DNA of 64,000 bases. It comes from Saccharibacillus kuerlensis DSM 22868 (GTDB lineage: Bacteria; Bacillota; Bacilli; Paenibacillales; Paenibacillaceae). The stretch is taken from NCBI RefSeq assembly GCF_000378145.1, contig NZ_KB899282.1, forward strand, positions 124,001-188,000, given 5' to 3'. The stretch's first letter is position 1; every line of letters starts with the position of its first letter. The notes under the pieces are model-generated. The model was not told where the DNA came from, searched no databases, and worked only from the letters and a program-made list of their open reading frames with translations. Of the stretch, positions 12,209 to 60,732 are shown piece by piece. The position numbers and the translations under genes were made by a program.

Positions 12209-14668
12209 TTATTGACCTTTATAAATGCCGGAACGACTGCCGGCACCCGCAGGCTTGATACCCCAGATTTCCGATGCATATTCATTAATTGTACGGTCGC
12301 CCGCAAAACGTCCGGAATGCGCAATATTGACGATCGATTTCTCCAACCATTTTTTCGAATCGCGATAATCCATACCGATCTGATTCTGTGTTTCCACATA
12401 ACTTGCGAAATCACGCAGAACGAAATATTCGTCGTTATGACTGAGCAGCGAATGATAGATTGGATCGAAGGTCTGACCATTCTGACAGAACGGGCCAGGC
12501 TGAACCAGCTGATCAAGCACTTTTTTCACACGTTCGTCGCTGTTGTAAATGGCTTGGGCAGAGTAACCGCCGTCACGATAGTACTTCTCTACATCTTCGA
12601 CGCGCAGTCCGAAGAGATACATACCCTCGTCACCGAGCGACTCGTACATCTCCACGTTTGCGCCGTCGAGCGTACCGATCGTCAGTGCACCGTTCATCAT
12701 CAGCTTCATATTGCCTGTACCCGATGCTTCTTTGCCAGCTGTCGAGATCTGTTCGCTGAGATCGGAAGCCGGGATGATTTTCTCTGCCAACGAGACCGAG
12801 TAATTTTCCAGGAAAAATACTTTGAGCAGATCTTTGGTGTCTGGATCATTATTGACCGTGTTGGCAATATTGTTGATCAGTTTGATGATCTGCTTCGCCA
12901 TGTAATAGCCCGGAGCCGCTTTTGCACCGAAAATGAACGTGCGCGGCGTGATCTCAAGCGATGGATTCTCCTTGATCCGGTTGTACAGATCCATAATGTG
13001 CAGAGCATTCAGCAATTGACGCTTGTAAGCGTGAAGACGCTTGATCTGTACATCGAAGATCGAATTTGTATCAACCGATACTCCATGCTTTTTATAAATA
13101 TAGGAAGCGAGACGCTCCTTGTTCTTGCGCTTAACGCTGTAAATCTTCTGTTGGACAACGGCGTCGTCAGCATACTTTAACAGTTCGGTAAGCTGCTGCG
13201 GCTGTGTTTTCCATTCCGAACCAATTGCCTCTTCGATCACATCGGCCAGTTCCGGATTGGCATGCATCAGCCAGCGGCGGTGCGTAATGCCGTTTGTTTT
13301 GTTGTTGAAGCGCTCGGGATACAATTCGTAGAAGTCTTTCATTTCCCGTTTTTTCAAAATATCCGTATGCAGCGCAGCTACGCCATTGACACTGTGGCTG
13401 CCGTAAATAGCCAGGTGCGCCATTTTGACGAAGCCGCTTTCGATGATTGCCATCCGCGATACGCGGTCTTGGTCATCCGGGTACTCCTCCAGCAGCATCG
13501 CACAGAAACGTTTGTTCAGTTCTTCGATAATCATATGAACACGCGGCAGCAGCTCACGGACCATCTGCTCCGGCCACGTTTCGAGAGCTTCGCTAAGAAT
13601 CGTGTGGTTAGTGTAGGACACGGTACGCGTCACGATGCTCCAAGCCTCATCCCAACCAAACCCTTTTTCGTCCATCAGAACGCGCATCAATTCAGGAATG
13701 ACCAGTGTCGGATGCGTATCGTTGATATGAATCGCTACTTTCTCGGCCAGACGGTCATAAGGCAGACGCAGTTTGTCAAACGTCCGCAGCACGCTGTGCA
13801 CGCCAGCGGAGCATAGGAAGTATTCCTGCTTCAAACGCAGCAGCTTACCTTCGTACTGGGAGTCATCCGGATAAAGGAATTCGGATACCGTCTCGACCGA
13901 ACGTTTGTAGTCGAGGAAGTTGTAATAGCTGCCTCCAGGACCGCCGAAGCCTTTCGAAGGATCGGCAGCCGATTCCGCGCTCCACAGACGGAGTGTGTTG
14001 ACGGACGCATTCTCATAGCCGACAACCGGAACGTCATAAGGCACGGCCCAGACGTTCTCGCCGTTTTTCGTCTCGTAGACGAGACGGCCGTTCTCTTCTT
14101 TCGCTTCTACATGGCCCCAAAATTGAACATTTACTTTTTTGTCGCCGCGACGAACTTCCCAGACGTTGCCTTTTTGCAGCCAGTAGTCCGGCAGTTCCAC
14201 CTGGTGTCCATCGATAATTTTCTGCTCAAACAGTCCGTATTTGTACCGGATACCGTTGCCGTGACCGGCATAACCCAGGGAAGCGAGCGAATCGAGGAAG
14301 CAGGCAGCCAATCGTCCAAGACCTCCATTGCCGAGACCGGCATCCGCTTCGTACTCTTCAATGTCTTCCAGATCCCAGCCCAACTCGCCAAGTCCTTCAC
14401 GTACCATTTCCAGTACACCCAGGTTCAGCAGGTTGTTACCAAGCAGTCGTCCCATCAAGAATTCCATGGAGAAATAATAGACCTGACGCTCGCTTTGTTC
14501 AATATAAGCGCGATTGGTTGCCGCCCAATCCTGGCCGATCCGTTCACGAATCATACTGCCCAGCGCTGCATATACATCATCTTCGGTTACTTCATGCACT
14601 TGGCGGCCGGTCTTGCCAACCAACCTCTGCTTGAATTCCCGTTTAAAGTTCTCTTTATTGTTAAACAT
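12209..14668 (-). CDS. glgP: Glycogen/starch/alpha-glucan phosphorylase
   Basis: 819 aa, normal length for GT35 phosphorylases. It releases glucose-1-phosphate from the non-reducing ends of alpha-1,4-glucan in the cytoplasm. Motifs include FSMEFLMGRLLGNNLLNLG, DAGLGNGGLGRLAACFLDSL, THPTLVIPELMRVLMDE, VQIKRLHAYKRQLLN and the pyridoxal-phosphate lysine in ASGTGNMKLMMNGALTIG (~residue 654). The frame is open 14 codons further from a TTG, but ATG 14668 follows AAAGGGG with good spacing and matches the family N-terminus. It is downstream of glgD and glgC on the same strand but separated by ~300 bp with a hairpin. Confidence 0.96.
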   Translation of the reverse strand: MFNNKENFKREFKQRLVGKTGRQVHEVTEDDVYAALGSMIRERIGQDWAATNRAYIEQSERQVYYFSMEFLMGRLLGNNLLNLGVLEMVREGLGELGWDLEDIEEYEADAGLGNGGLGRLAACFLDSLASLGYAGHGNGIRYKYGLFEQKIIDGHQVELPDYWLQKGNVWEVRRGDKKVNVQFWGHVEAKEENGRLVYETKNGENVWAVPYDVPVVGYENASVNTLRLWSAESAADPSKGFGGPGGSYYNFLDYKRSVETVSEFLYPDDSQYEGKLLRLKQEYFLCSAGVHSVLRTFDKLRLPYDRLAEKVAIHINDTHPTLVIPELMRVLMDEKGFGWDEAWSIVTRTVSYTNHTILSEALETWPEQMVRELLPRVHMIIEELNKRFCAMLLEEYPDDQDRVSRMAIIESGFVKMAHLAIYGSHSVNGVAALHTDILKKREMKDFYELYPERFNNKTNGITHRRWLMHANPELADVIEEAIGSEWKTQPQQLTELLKYADDAVVQQKIYSVKRKNKERLASYIYKKHGVSVDTNSIFDVQIKRLHAYKRQLLNALHIMDLYNRIKENPSLEITPRTFIFGAKAAPGYYMAKQIIKLINNIANTVNNDPDTKDLLKVFFLENYSVSLAEKIIPASDLSEQISTAGKEASGTGNMKLMMNGALTIGTLDGANVEMYESLGDEGMYLFGLRVEDVEKYYRDGGYSAQAIYNSDERVKKVLDQLVQPGPFCQNGQTFDPIYHSLLSHNDEYFVLRDFASYVETQNQIGMDYRDSKKWLEKSIVNIAHSGRFAGDRTINEYASEIWGIKPAGAGSRSGIYKGQ

Positions 14669-14969
14669 GGGTGGAACCCCTTTCCCGTTTCGCCGAAACC
14701 GTTCTTGCAACCTTGGACTCGCCGGAGGTTACTGCGTACGATGCGGCGGCGGACGAATGAATAAATTATGATTTGGATTTAAAACGACTCAGCCGTCAAC
14801 ATTATGGTTAGCTCTTATATTTAGATACAAAAAGGTCTTCCACAACCTGGTTCCGAAAGGAACCGGGTCTAGAAGACCTGTGGTTTCGTTTATATATCGG
14901 TAAATTGGCCGGATTTTTTAGAGCTGGGTGAATTGCCGGCCAATCCCGAAATTTGTTAATGATATCCTG
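14669..14969. other. glgP-glgD intergenic region
   Basis: Non-coding 300 bp. It holds the glgD terminator hairpin near 14833-14879 and should contain the glgP promoter on the minus strand. No other clear element. Confidence 0.5.
14826..14879 (-). terminator. Two-level hairpin terminator after glgD
   Basis: The outer stem AGGTCTTC/GAAGACCT (14833-14840, 14872-14879) encloses an inner 10-bp stem around GGTTCC-GAAA-GGAACC (14849-14864). On the minus strand a TTTTT run follows the outer stem. A competing pairing CCACA (14840-14844) with TGTGG (14879-14883) is possible, so it could act as an attenuator in front of glgP. Confidence 0.65.
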
Positions 14970-16073
14970 CTAGATGATGCTTCGTTTCGCGATAACAAAT
15001 GGTCTGCGGGCATCGCCTATCAAAGTGCGATTTGCAGTCAGCTGAACGTCTTTGTCCAGAATGACGTTCTCTATGATTGCCCCCGCTTCGATCACGCATT
15101 TCTGCATAATAATCGAGTTGATGATTTTTGCACCCTTTTCCACTTTTACGCCGCGGAACAGAATGCTACCTTCGACTTCGCCGGCGATCCGGCAGCCGTT
15201 AGCGACGAGGGAGTTGCGTACGTCAGCACCTTCGAGATACTTGGTCGGTGCTTCATACTTAATTTTGGTCTGCACCGGCATATCTTTCGAGAACAGCTGA
15301 TTATATTTTTCCTGATCCAGCAGCTCAAGGCTGTTTTTGTAGTAGCTTTCGACCGAGTTGATTACCGCATGGTAACCTTTATACTCGTAAGCCGCAATCT
15401 TCAGCCCGTTTGGATTTTTCATAATCGCGTCGCGGAAGAAGTAGCTGTCTCCATGCGCGATGCAGTACTCCATCTGCTGCATATACAAATCTTTCTCCAT
15501 AACGAAAATCTCGATATAGACATTGTGATGGCCCTTCTCATTATGAATGCCGGTCACAAAGCCGTCTTCGCCAACGTCGACCCGGAAGCACGGATCATGT
15601 TCCGCTGCCGGAAGATCGATATGCTTGTACACTACTGTCACATCCGCGCCCGATTCCTTGTGATAAGTCGCCAGATCGCAGAAGTCCACTTTGGACAAAT
15701 GCTGACTGCCTGAGTGAACGACGTATTCTCCGGTACTACGATTGAAGAAGTCGCGGTTGTTATGCATATGCTGCAGATCTCCTGCCGAGATGTCGGTCGG
15801 GTCGTTCCAGTCCGGAGGCAGAACGAACAATCCGCCCCGCTTGCGGTCAAGATCCCATGGACGGCCTTCTCCCAAGTGATCGAGCAGCGACCGATATTTG
15901 CGTCGTACGAACAGCGCAATATCTTGTACGCCTGCGCTCATCATGTTGGACAATGCAAAATCGATCAGTCGGTAGCGTCCCGCAAAGGGAACGGCCGCGC
16001 CTGCGCGGAAGTACGTCAGTTCGTTTAACTGGTCCAGCTCGTGGTCTAAATTGATTACACCCATGAGTTTCAT
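14970..16073 (-). CDS. glgD: Glucose-1-phosphate adenylyltransferase subunit GlgD
   Basis: 367 aa, colinear with Firmicute GlgD, the non-catalytic or regulatory partner of GlgC. The nucleotidyltransferase-like N-terminal half has PFAGRYRLIDFALSNMMSAG but lacks the full glycine-rich GGxGxRL loop (NELTYFRAGAAVPFAGRYR instead). The C-terminal ~100 residues form left-handed beta-helix repeats (SLVANGCRIAGEVEGS, KGAKIINSIIMQKCVIEAG). The GlgC-GlgD heteromer makes ADP-glucose for glycogen synthesis. The ATG is preceded by a GGTGG-type site. It is downstream of glgC, separated by ~360 bp of structured repeats. Confidence 0.94.
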   Translation of the reverse strand: MKLMGVINLDHELDQLNELTYFRAGAAVPFAGRYRLIDFALSNMMSAGVQDIALFVRRKYRSLLDHLGEGRPWDLDRKRGGLFVLPPDWNDPTDISAGDLQHMHNNRDFFNRSTGEYVVHSGSQHLSKVDFCDLATYHKESGADVTVVYKHIDLPAAEHDPCFRVDVGEDGFVTGIHNEKGHHNVYIEIFVMEKDLYMQQMEYCIAHGDSYFFRDAIMKNPNGLKIAAYEYKGYHAVINSVESYYKNSLELLDQEKYNQLFSKDMPVQTKIKYEAPTKYLEGADVRNSLVANGCRIAGEVEGSILFRGVKVEKGAKIINSIIMQKCVIEAGAIIENVILDKDVQLTANRTLIGDARRPFVIAKRSII

Positions 16074-16151
16074 GGTTCCACCGTCCCTTTTCTGCTGTCT
16101 TTAATTTGCGTTCTTAAAAATTCCTATTCGTTAGAGAAACTTGAAAGCTGC

Positions 16152-16250
16152 GGGAGAAATTCGTTCAAGCCGCTGTCTCACCCGGAAAGTGGAATGAATC
16201 CAAAAAGGAATCTTTCCGGGTTCAAAGGCGTCTTTCACTGAATTTCTCCC
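16152..16250 (-). other. Nested inverted-repeat element in the glgD leader
   Basis: The outer arms GGGAGAAATTC (16152-16162) and GAATTTCTCCC (16240-16250) pair over 11 bp. Inner arms ACCCGGAAAG (16180-16189) and CTTTCCGGGT (16212-16221) pair over 10 bp. The ~100-nt element lies 79 bp upstream of the glgD start and would be transcribed in its leader. It matches no riboswitch class I recognise, and no T tract marks it as a terminator. A regulatory leader is an inference. Confidence 0.45.
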
Positions 16251-16328
16251 TCCGCTTATGGCTTCACAAGAAAATCGGAGTTTTTTTAAAAACTCAAATA
16301 TTTCATTTCCTGAGTTTGTATGATGAGG

Positions 16329-16456
16329 AAGGCGTATCGCCGTTTACGGCGAACAGCCTCGCCTCTGACCTTTAGTTGGTCAGTAAGGCGTATCGCCGTT
16401 TCGGCGAACAGCCTCGCCTCTGATTTCTACGTAATCAGTAAGGCGTATCGCCGTTT
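16329..16456. repeat. Tandem structured repeat (56 + 55 + 17 bp) overlapping the glgC 3' end
   Basis: Unit 1 (16329-16384) and unit 2 (16385-16439) share AAGGCGTATCGCCGTTT, CGGCGAACAGCCTCGCCTCTGA and a terminal hairpin. A third partial unit (16440-16456) runs into glgC and encodes its last residues. Each full unit can fold into a CGCCG/CGGCG hairpin enclosed by GGCG/CGCC and a second hairpin. That second stem is CTGACC/GGTCAG in unit 1 but CTGATT/AATCAG in unit 2, so both arms changed together. The glgC stop codon lies in the second hairpin of unit 2. Confidence 0.85.
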
Positions 16457-17577
16457 ATCAATAAGATTTCGCTATCGTCTTCGCGGTCGGCGCCGATCAC
16501 AGTTCCGTCAGGAATCACTTTCCCTTGATCTACGATAGCCCGGTGGATGCGCACGTTGCGACCGATCTTCACTTCGGGCATAATGACCGATTCCGTGATT
16601 ACACTGCCTTCGCCGACTTCAACGCCGTAGAACAGCACGGAGCGGTCGATTTCGCCGCGCACGGTACATCCTTCGTTAACGATGCAGTTTTTGAGCTTGG
16701 CATCCGGAGAAATGTACTGGGCAGGCTCGTTCGGGTTCCGCGTATAGATGCGCCATTCCGGATCGTTCAGATTAAGGTCCGGATCATCGTTCAGCAGGTC
16801 CATGTTGGCTTCCCACAGGCTTGGGATTGTACCTACATCGCGCCAGTAGCCTTCGAAAGGATACGCATACAACGACAGGCCGTCAGCCAGCATCTTCGGT
16901 ACAACGTCCTTGCCGAAATCGTGCGACGATTCGGTATCCGGCTTGTCGATGTCTTCTACCAGGTATTTGCGCAGCACGTCCCATTTGAAGATATAGACGC
17001 CCATTGATGCCAACGTGCTCTTGGGCTGCTTCGGCTTCTCGTCGAACTCATAGATGCGGAGATCGTCATGAGTATTGATCATGCCAAAGCTCGGCGCTTC
17101 TTCAAGCTTCACGTTAATGACAGAGATAGAGCAGTCTGCATTTTTTTCTTTATGATAATCAAGCAGTTTGGTGTAATCCATTTTATACACGTGGTCGCCG
17201 GACAGCACCAGCAGGTGCTCGGGATCATATTGATCGATGAATTTGAGATTTCGCGAAATGGCATCGGCCGTGCCTCGGTACCAACTGCTTCCATTTTCCC
17301 GTTCATGCGGTGGCAAAACAAACACGCCGCCGTTTTTACGGTCCATATCCCAATCGCTTCCGACACCTATGTAAGAATGCAGTACGAGCGGCTCGTACTG
17401 AGTCAGCACGCCTACAGTGTCGATACCCGAATTGGTACAGTTGCTGAGCGGGAAGTCGATAATGCGATATGTTCCTCCAAAATAAACGGCAGGTTTGGCC
17501 AAAGATTTCGTCAGCCCTTTAAGTCTCTTTCCCTGTCCGCCGGCAAGCAGCATGGCGATCATTTCTTTTTTCTTCAT
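16435..17577 (-). CDS. glgC: Glucose-1-phosphate adenylyltransferase
   Basis: 380 aa. It makes ADP-glucose from ATP and glucose-1-phosphate, the committed step of bacterial glycogen synthesis. The pyrophosphorylase signature is [20 protein letters not shown]. Other family motifs are [37 protein letters not shown], the substrate-binding FDEKP, and [20 protein letters not shown]. The C-terminal third is a beta-helix ([19 protein letters not shown]). CGAGGAGG supports the start. The last six residues (NGDTPY) are encoded within a repeat unit that continues as a tandem array past the stop, so the C-terminus may have been reshaped by repeat insertion. No glgA or glgB is in the window. Confidence 0.96.
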
Positions 17578-22166: not shown

Positions 22167-22177
22167 GTTCACGGACG

Positions 22178-22277
22178 GATACGAATTCTCTACGCTGGCA
22201 TGATCCAGATCAGATTAACGGTCAGAAGCGGTAAAACGGCTTCAATCTCAGCCCGGCTCGCCCGGACCCCCGTATCG
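22178..22277 (-). ncRNA. TPP (THI-element) riboswitch
   Basis: On the minus strand the conserved aptamer blocks appear in order: GATACGGGGGTCC, GGGCTGAGA, then CTGATCTGGATCATGCCAGC and GTAGAGAA. The closing P1 stem is GATACG (22271-22276 complement) with CGTATC (22179-22184 complement). Between GGGCTGAGA and CTGATCTGGAT lies the variable P3 arm (GAAGCCGTTTTACCGCTTC). It is followed by an intrinsic terminator, so thiamine pyrophosphate should switch transcription off. Confidence 0.96.
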
Positions 22278-22294
22278 TTATGCAGTTGCTTTTT

Positions 22295-31912: not shown

Positions 31913-31960
31913 AAAAAGCCGTATCCCGCGAAATAATCGCCCCGGATACGGCCTTTTTTT
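31913..31960 (+). terminator. Terminator after the BadF-type kinase gene
   Basis: Stem GCCGTATCC / GGATACGGC (31918-31926, 31944-31952) followed by TTTTTTT, which continues directly into the GCTTTT microsatellite. Confidence 0.85.
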
Positions 31961-32023
31961 GCTTTTGCTTTTGCTTTTGCTTTTGCTTTTGCTTTTGCTT
32001 TTGCTTTTGCTTTTGCTTTTGCT
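31961..32023. repeat. (GCTTTT) x 10.5 microsatellite
   Basis: 63 bp of perfect hexanucleotide repeat immediately after the terminator T tract, between two convergent genes. It encodes nothing on either strand that looks like a protein. It is expected to vary in copy number by slippage. Confidence 0.95.
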
Positions 32024-60482: not shown

Positions 60483-60564
60483 GGTCTTTTTTCCCCCATT
60501 CATGTTTTTGGACGACCGCTTGATTGGGAAAGTTTGGCTTGTTTAAAAGACGAAAAAGTTAAGG

Positions 60565-60679
60565 AAAGAGAAGATCGTTTCGATCGCTCGTTGTCTCCAG
60601 GAATTTGAATTGTATTTATAAATGGAATATTCCCGGAGACAAAGGCGAGCGCTGACGCTTCTACACTGATCTTCTCTTT
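60565..60679 (-). other. Nested inverted repeat in the sdhA-sdhB gap
   Basis: Outer arms AAAGAGAAGATC (60565-60576) and its exact complement (60668-60679). Middle arms GCTCG + TTGTCTCC (60586-60598) with GGAGACAA + CGAGC (60635-60650). Innermost GGAAT/ATTCC (60600-60604, 60629-60633). The transcript could fold into a ~115-nt rod. It matches no RNA family I recognise. Confidence 0.7.
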
Positions 60680-60732
60680 CTTTTTTATTCGCTTTAACAT
60701 CCGAACTTTTTACTCAAGCTTTTTATCGGTTG

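Follow-up and report, generated by a model that had tools for sequence, protein, structure and literature searches.

A single-locus tandem array of covarying hairpin units at the end of glgC

In the window (the whole stretch of DNA analysed, 64,000 nucleotides), the end of glgC runs into a tandem array of units that is lineage-specific and, in the genomes searched, found at a single locus. Judging from covariation beyond chance among the units, the array is a structured RNA element. The reading favoured here, with a probability of about one half, is that of a single-locus, tandemly amplified intercistronic hairpin array that would act as a barrier protecting or processing glgC mRNA; the main rival is an origin of the covariation by template switching. 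The array is real, of modest scope and apparently undescribed: among the open-access titles and abstracts listed for the genus, the genes and the mechanisms, none contained a description of it.

Tandem Repeats Finder and a repeat search both recover the array at 16329-16457, which bears out the repeat described in an earlier sequence-only reading of this DNA. The former gives a period of 55, 2.3 copies and a score of 202, the best of 27 rows in the window, and the latter gives two 55-nt copies with 85% identity and a 25-nt core present three times. Because glgC, glgD and the glycogen phosphorylase gene are all on the minus strand, the mRNA sense of the array is the minus strand. The features of the locus are listed below; unit scores are from R1, a covariance model made from 12 units.

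16435..17577, minus strand: glgC, glucose-1-phosphate adenylyltransferase (TIGR02091, 464.9 bits, cut-off 424.9)
16435-16437, minus strand: stop codon of glgC, UGA
16400..16454, minus strand: unit 1 (R1, 62.8 bits; structure by pair counts)
16447-16453 and 16402-16408, minus strand: P1 arms of unit 1, placed by hand from the unit sequence
16443-16445 and 16415-16417, minus strand: P2 arms of unit 1, placed likewise by hand
16433-16437 and 16421-16425, minus strand: P3 arms of unit 1, placed likewise by hand
16344..16399, minus strand: unit 2, complete and non-coding, with P1, P2 and P3 as in unit 1 (R1, 70.2 bits)
16329..16343, minus strand: 3' hemi-unit, in which the 5' arms of P1 and P2 are copied and the 3' half is absent (repeat search and sequence)
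16074..16328, minus strand: rest of the glgC-glgD gap, with a dispersed repeat and the glgD ribosome-binding region
14970..16073, minus strand: glgD, GlgD subunit, the next gene on the glgC strand (TIGR02092, 415.7 bits, cut-off 236.6)
12209-14710, minus strand: glycogen phosphorylase gene

Each unit of about 55 nt can be folded as one long hairpin composed of P1, an asymmetric loop, the short P2 and the inner stem P3. Unit 1 begins at the second base of glgC codon 375 and includes the last codons (NGDTPY) and the stop; the 5' arm of P1 runs from the last base of codon 375 through the end of codon 377, and the UGA lies within the 5' arm of P3. Unit 2 and the hemi-unit are located in the glgC-glgD gap. 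The sequence-only reading had a partial third unit supplying the last glgC codons and the stop in unit 2: the overlap with the coding end is right, but the supposed partial unit is the 5' part of unit 1, and the stop, which does sit inside a repeat unit, sits in the first one in mRNA register (16454-16400). A hemi-unit does exist, but at the other end (16343-16329). The match to the curated glgC model NF003670 covers residues 3-374 only and ends before residues 375-380 (NGDTPY), so the glgC tail lies outside the matched family homology. A 161-nt stretch in mRNA sense folds better than shuffled sequences (z -5.70, 0 of 200), and the opposite strand is likewise stable (z -4.78, 0 of 200), as expected for inverted repeats. 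At gathering score, the array has no Rfam match, the only match in the whole window being a TPP riboswitch outside the array (22169-22283, minus strand, 55.5 bits, the gathering score being 54.3); when matches up to E 1 are admitted, the gap has one sub-threshold sRNA match only, mainly over its downstream part.

Arrays of one to seven units are present at the glgC end in nine of the 16 genomes assigned to the genus, the glgC ends having been read in all 16. There are seven units in G003, three in G005 (one interrupted by an assembly gap) and in G010, two and the hemi-unit in G000, one intact and one decayed in G011, and one each in G001, G006, G012, and G013. No array is present in G014, nor in G002, G004, G007, G008, G009, and G015; these last six have a GlgC with 73-76% identity to the window protein. 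The sequence-only reading had made its proposal depend on further copies in relatives, and these are at hand. A BLAST search of the 16 genomes with the array as query (E<=0.01) finds the glgC end in six relatives and the own genome; a 22-nt match on G001:C5 (E 0.007) was taken as chance. R1 has 21 strong matches (E<1e-5) among the best 150 candidates scored per genus genome, all at glgC in the nine array genomes. Among the best 19 candidates scored in each of 295 family genomes, no locus beyond glgC reaches E<1e-5 and the next best has 4.7e-4; at either depth a weak copy might escape. Weaker R1 matches elsewhere in the genus (E 0.006 and worse) were taken as chance after six loci were read; two of these, from G011 and G006, are almost the same in sequence and show a P1-like stem, with no second unit in 210 bases. 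A second glgC-like gene is present in all 16 genus genomes (e.g., L039, G000:C13:88579-89667), with 46-57% identity to the first, and has no strong R1 match in any of them.

Between the glgC stop and the GGACGGTG motif that precedes glgD there are 80-476 nt in G000, G001, G003, G005, G006, and G010-G014. In the array-free genomes other than G014, six in all, this distance is 9-11 nt. At 21 further loci (from 80, mostly Paenibacillus), a glgD-like start lies 2-24 nt past glgC in 14, and in the other seven, which the pattern search missed, reading places a start codon within about 10 nt. The gap of G014 is 80 nt and contains a piece that resembles the hemi-unit when read by eye, which makes loss likelier than primary absence; the glgC tree leaves the placement of G014 open.

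Three alignments were used for the structure. A1 holds 17 of the 21 units, leaving out the G005 gap unit, the seventh G003 unit, the third G010 unit (identical to the second), and the decayed G011 unit; A2, the seed of the model, holds 12 of these 17, five G003 units having been dropped because MAFFT misplaced their P3 arm; A3 holds all 21 units, 20 of them distinct, aligned through the model. In the 12 seed units 96.7% of pair cells are paired. The figures for the 20 distinct units are inflated towards the model, owing to kinship among the rows and to a model-fitted alignment: 97.3% of pair cells are standard, five of 15 pairs have changed on both sides, in 15 such cells (for paired cells, two-sided pairs, and two-sided cells, the shuffles that do as well number 0, 1, and 0 out of 500, respectively), and the covariation score is 0.193 against 0.121 in shuffles, with 0 or 1 of 500 as high. 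Pairing falls to 18-63% when the 3' arm is slid. Further pair types are no more numerous than in the shuffles, of which 495 of 500 give an equal or higher count.

The paired arm difference from which compensatory change was first proposed (CTGACC/GGTCAG versus CTGATT/AATCAG) was verified, two-sided changes recur in relatives, and a check for random substitutions in the stems found compensatory ones instead. In P1, G013 has U-A for C-G, which in glgC is the silent change GGC to GGT, and five G003 units have C-G for U-A, in glgC the silent change GAT to GAC; both are matched in the 3' arm. In P2, two G003 units have A-U for G-C, and in P3 there are swaps of U-A and C-G, including that between units 1 and 2 of the window. 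Because a block of three was duplicated among the seven G003 units, some changes are not independent of one another; counted by eye, the independent two-sided changes number about six. Uncompensated cells occur at pair 8-75 in three units, at 22-54 in three, and at 10-65 in two. The asymmetric loop between P1 and P2 is kept in every intact unit of A3, with varying letters. When nine single units from eight genomes were folded in isolation, every one formed a single hairpin that has P1, P3, and some pairs in between (z -2.56 to -6.28); for three of the nine, 2-4 of 200 shuffles do equally well. In G000, G005, and G010 the P2 predicted in this way is in another register than that of the consensus.

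The paired third bases of glgC codons N375, G376, D377, and T/S378 offer a second view of the stem. These codons agree in 108 of 124 same-residue species pairs (0.87), compared with 0.64 elsewhere in glgC and 0.31 (17/54) for the last two codons, whose third bases are outside the counted helices; the value of 0.87 is reached by 1284 of 20000 residue-matched quartets and by 18 of 371 four-codon windows. Tail-codon conservation is suggestive, short of proof, as a sign of constraint on the sequence. The array-free G014 has GGG at codon 376 and TCT at codon 378.

Units are more alike within a genome than between genomes (identity 0.84 over 27 pairs and 0.67 over 163 pairs, respectively, without the G005 gap unit; 0 of 5000 label shuffles), which points to tandem birth and death and not to mobility. 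G005 and G010, sisters in the glgC tree, are each uniform but differ from one another, all G005 copies reading CGCCTTATTGA and all full G010 units CGCCCTACTGA, a sign of recent homogenisation. Of the two G011 units, the intact one resembles the G006 unit and the decayed one the units of G012 and G013, so the array had probably reached two or more units before these species diverged, with copies gained and lost. Unit 1 would derive from the tail codons and stop of glgC together with the beginning of the 3' untranslated region, with later units arising as tandem copies. Gain and loss probably proceeded via slippage or recombination between direct repeats, by which copies in one genome would stay alike.

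A simple consensus scan of six of the nine array loci (the window, L021, L022, L024, L025, and L027, with L023, L026, and L028 left out) found neither a U-tract terminator on the sense strand nor a promoter-like pattern in the sense-strand gap, which in the window is the minus strand between glgC and glgD; glgC and glgD are therefore probably carried on one transcript. On the opposite strand, the window array (16403-16418), L021, and L025 have terminator-like sites, and L022 has two promoter-like ones. An intrinsic terminator was rejected for the six loci, the sense-strand stem having no U-tract. By predicted folding, the array is a stable hairpin at a gene border without a U-tract, as intra-operon protective hairpins are, and the position between the two cistrons fits the stability element suggested in the sequence-only reading, or a processing element. 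Under the barrier reading, hairpins in the shared transcript would form a 3' barrier after cleavage or during decay, and glgC mRNA would thereby outlive glgD mRNA or be uncoupled from it; extra units may keep one hairpin folded while the terminating ribosome melts unit 1. Stalling at the stop codon would also fit the site; the barrier fits several units past the stop as well. Counted against the barrier are the life of G014 without an array, the differing P2 register in three genomes, the three single units that some shuffles equal, tail-codon conservation that is no more than suggestive, the possibility of compensatory change by template switching, and the folds described below in which arms of neighbouring units pair.

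A functionless mutational product is unlikely by comparison but is the strongest of the alternatives. The array would then be a hairpin-prone minisatellite in which slippage alters copy number and template switching copies changes from arm to arm. Strong within-genome homogenisation, the loss of the array in G014, and the weak conservation of the tail codons are all as this would have it, and template switching is proposed, in the part of PMC8794818 drawn on here, as a source of compensatory changes without selection. However, arm-to-arm copying should perfect the hairpin, and the asymmetric loop persists in every intact unit; unit 1 is also intact in all nine array genomes, despite differences of 0.20-0.56 among them at glgC fourfold sites.

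Translation-linked control is a good deal more doubtful. The stem at the stop codon would slow or stall ribosomes terminating on glgC, lowering GlgC or triggering cleavage, and in arrays the ribosome may also set the pairing register. With the stop in P3 and codons 375-377 in P1, the unit is placed for such an effect, and an excerpt of PMC12306157, citing Liang et al. 2015, states that a stem at the stop codon can stall ribosomes and that REPs less than 16 nt from the stop down-regulate translation. In constrained folding with a mock ribosome on the stop, crudely modelled as a blocked stretch, the first 3' arm moves to the arm of the next unit with a probability of 0.83-0.99 in seven of nine genomes, but not in the window genome (0.0) or G013 (0.22). 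For G011 and G012 the second arm entry was used, the first being a false 3' arm inside the 5' arm. The shift is small, since whole-array ViennaRNA folds without a ribosome already have the first 3' arm preferring the 5' arm of the next unit (probability of at least 0.70) in five of nine genomes (G000, G001, G003, G005, and G010). Against this, only five of 15 junctions distinguish pairing within a unit from pairing with the following one, and the own arm fits better in all five, four of which are in G003 and are partly mutual copies. The own-register hairpin is taken as the conserved structure; for a register switch, the less likely idea, the folds and arm comparisons are mixed to negative.

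In that switch, a ribosome ending glgC would cover the 5' arm of unit 1, the freed 3' arm would pair with unit 2, and the shift would run down the array to the hemi-unit, unit number being an evolutionary dial; that the array in this way reads glgC translation and sets glgD output or glgC mRNA stability seems improbable. A source of a small RNA or a processed 3' fragment acting elsewhere, which had also been suggested at first, is very unlikely: the segment between the genes is folded and stable, but the sense-strand gap at the six loci scanned is free of promoter-like and terminator-like sites, and the hairpin loop varies between species, so that no conserved seed is visible. The idea from the sequence-only reading that a mobile structured repeat (REP, MITE, or similar) landed at glgC has the least to recommend it and was rejected for this array, because the hairpin units, repeated as they are, occupy one locus per genome searched: no second locus in the own genome (next best E 0.98 by BLAST and 0.05 by R1), strong matches at glgC only in the 295 family genomes (best 19 candidates each), and no match at E 0.01 among 72,556 plasmid and 50,697 phage records.

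Bacterial minisatellites (VNTR loci) have head-to-tail units, copy-number change, and within-array homogenisation. The glgC array is like them in all three respects; unlike them, its units keep covarying secondary structure across species. The REP/BIME elements of enterobacteria are also palindromic units near stop codons and are sometimes clustered, but with one locus per genome searched the glgC unit is not a many-copy element, and assignment to REP/BIME or another dispersed palindromic element was rejected. Copies of REPs number in the hundreds to thousands and are scattered, according to the excerpt of PMC12306157, while the glgC unit is at one locus and overlaps a gene. Closest to the barrier reading are the protective hairpins of the malE-malF type in PMC5927463, which are stable and U-tract-free, lie between or overlap operon genes, and are likely exonuclease barriers. 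For E. coli, the portion of that paper used here reports U-tract-free hairpins at operon gene borders as protective, with wobble-base conservation; 26 of the 34 gene pairs have their stabilised 3' end just past one. The hairpin is in the downstream gene in 17 of these 26, which counts against the barrier reading, since the glgC array overlaps the end of the upstream gene. The glgC array also differs in being tandem and lineage-specific and in having a stop codon in its stem.

The locus provides a natural series of 0, 1, 2, 3, and 7 units in one species group, with which to study the origin of structured tandem repeats at the end of a coding region, their likeness within a genome, and the upkeep of their pairing. 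Intra-operon decay elements are less mapped in Gram-positive bacteria than in E. coli. If the hairpins set glgC relative to glgD mRNA, unit number would be a dose series for Gram-positive intra-operon decay.

The gap also contains a separate element about 75 bp from the array, a dispersed repeat of about 121 bp that is an imperfect palindrome and is spread far more widely than the array. In the window, R2, a model of this repeat made from nine copies, places copies at 16147-16255 and 60561-60683, both on the minus strand. There is no Rfam match to it in the window at gathering score, and at five other loci a search up to E 0.1 returned a single match, below threshold. R2 has 62 matches in the own genome at E<=0.01 (seven of which, by our own count, repeat a place on the other strand), from one to at least 150 matches per genome in all 16 genus genomes, and matches in 115 of 148 family genomes (E<=1e-5) and in 27 of 299 class genomes (E<=1e-7), all 27 within the same family. 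In a model-fitted alignment of 39 copies drawn from 37 loci, two-sided change is seen at 29 of 36 pairs, with 98.3% of cells pairing; 0 of 500 shuffles score as high. Eighteen loci from six genomes and five genera have a common core like AGGAGCG..AGCGTTCGCCTTTG and AACAGCGA, with freely varying stems. By a crude assignment from long open frames, 27 own-genome loci include nine between co-directional, nine between convergent, and two between divergent frames, six within frames of at least 90 codons (mostly short and doubtful), and one that is unclear. Other loci include L187, L183, and L251, the last from another genus of the family, where four copies stand head to tail at 1501-2079 with a spacing of 151 nt. 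The window contains one further short tandem repeat, a perfect 6-bp repeat of TTTTGC in 11.2 copies at 31957-32023.
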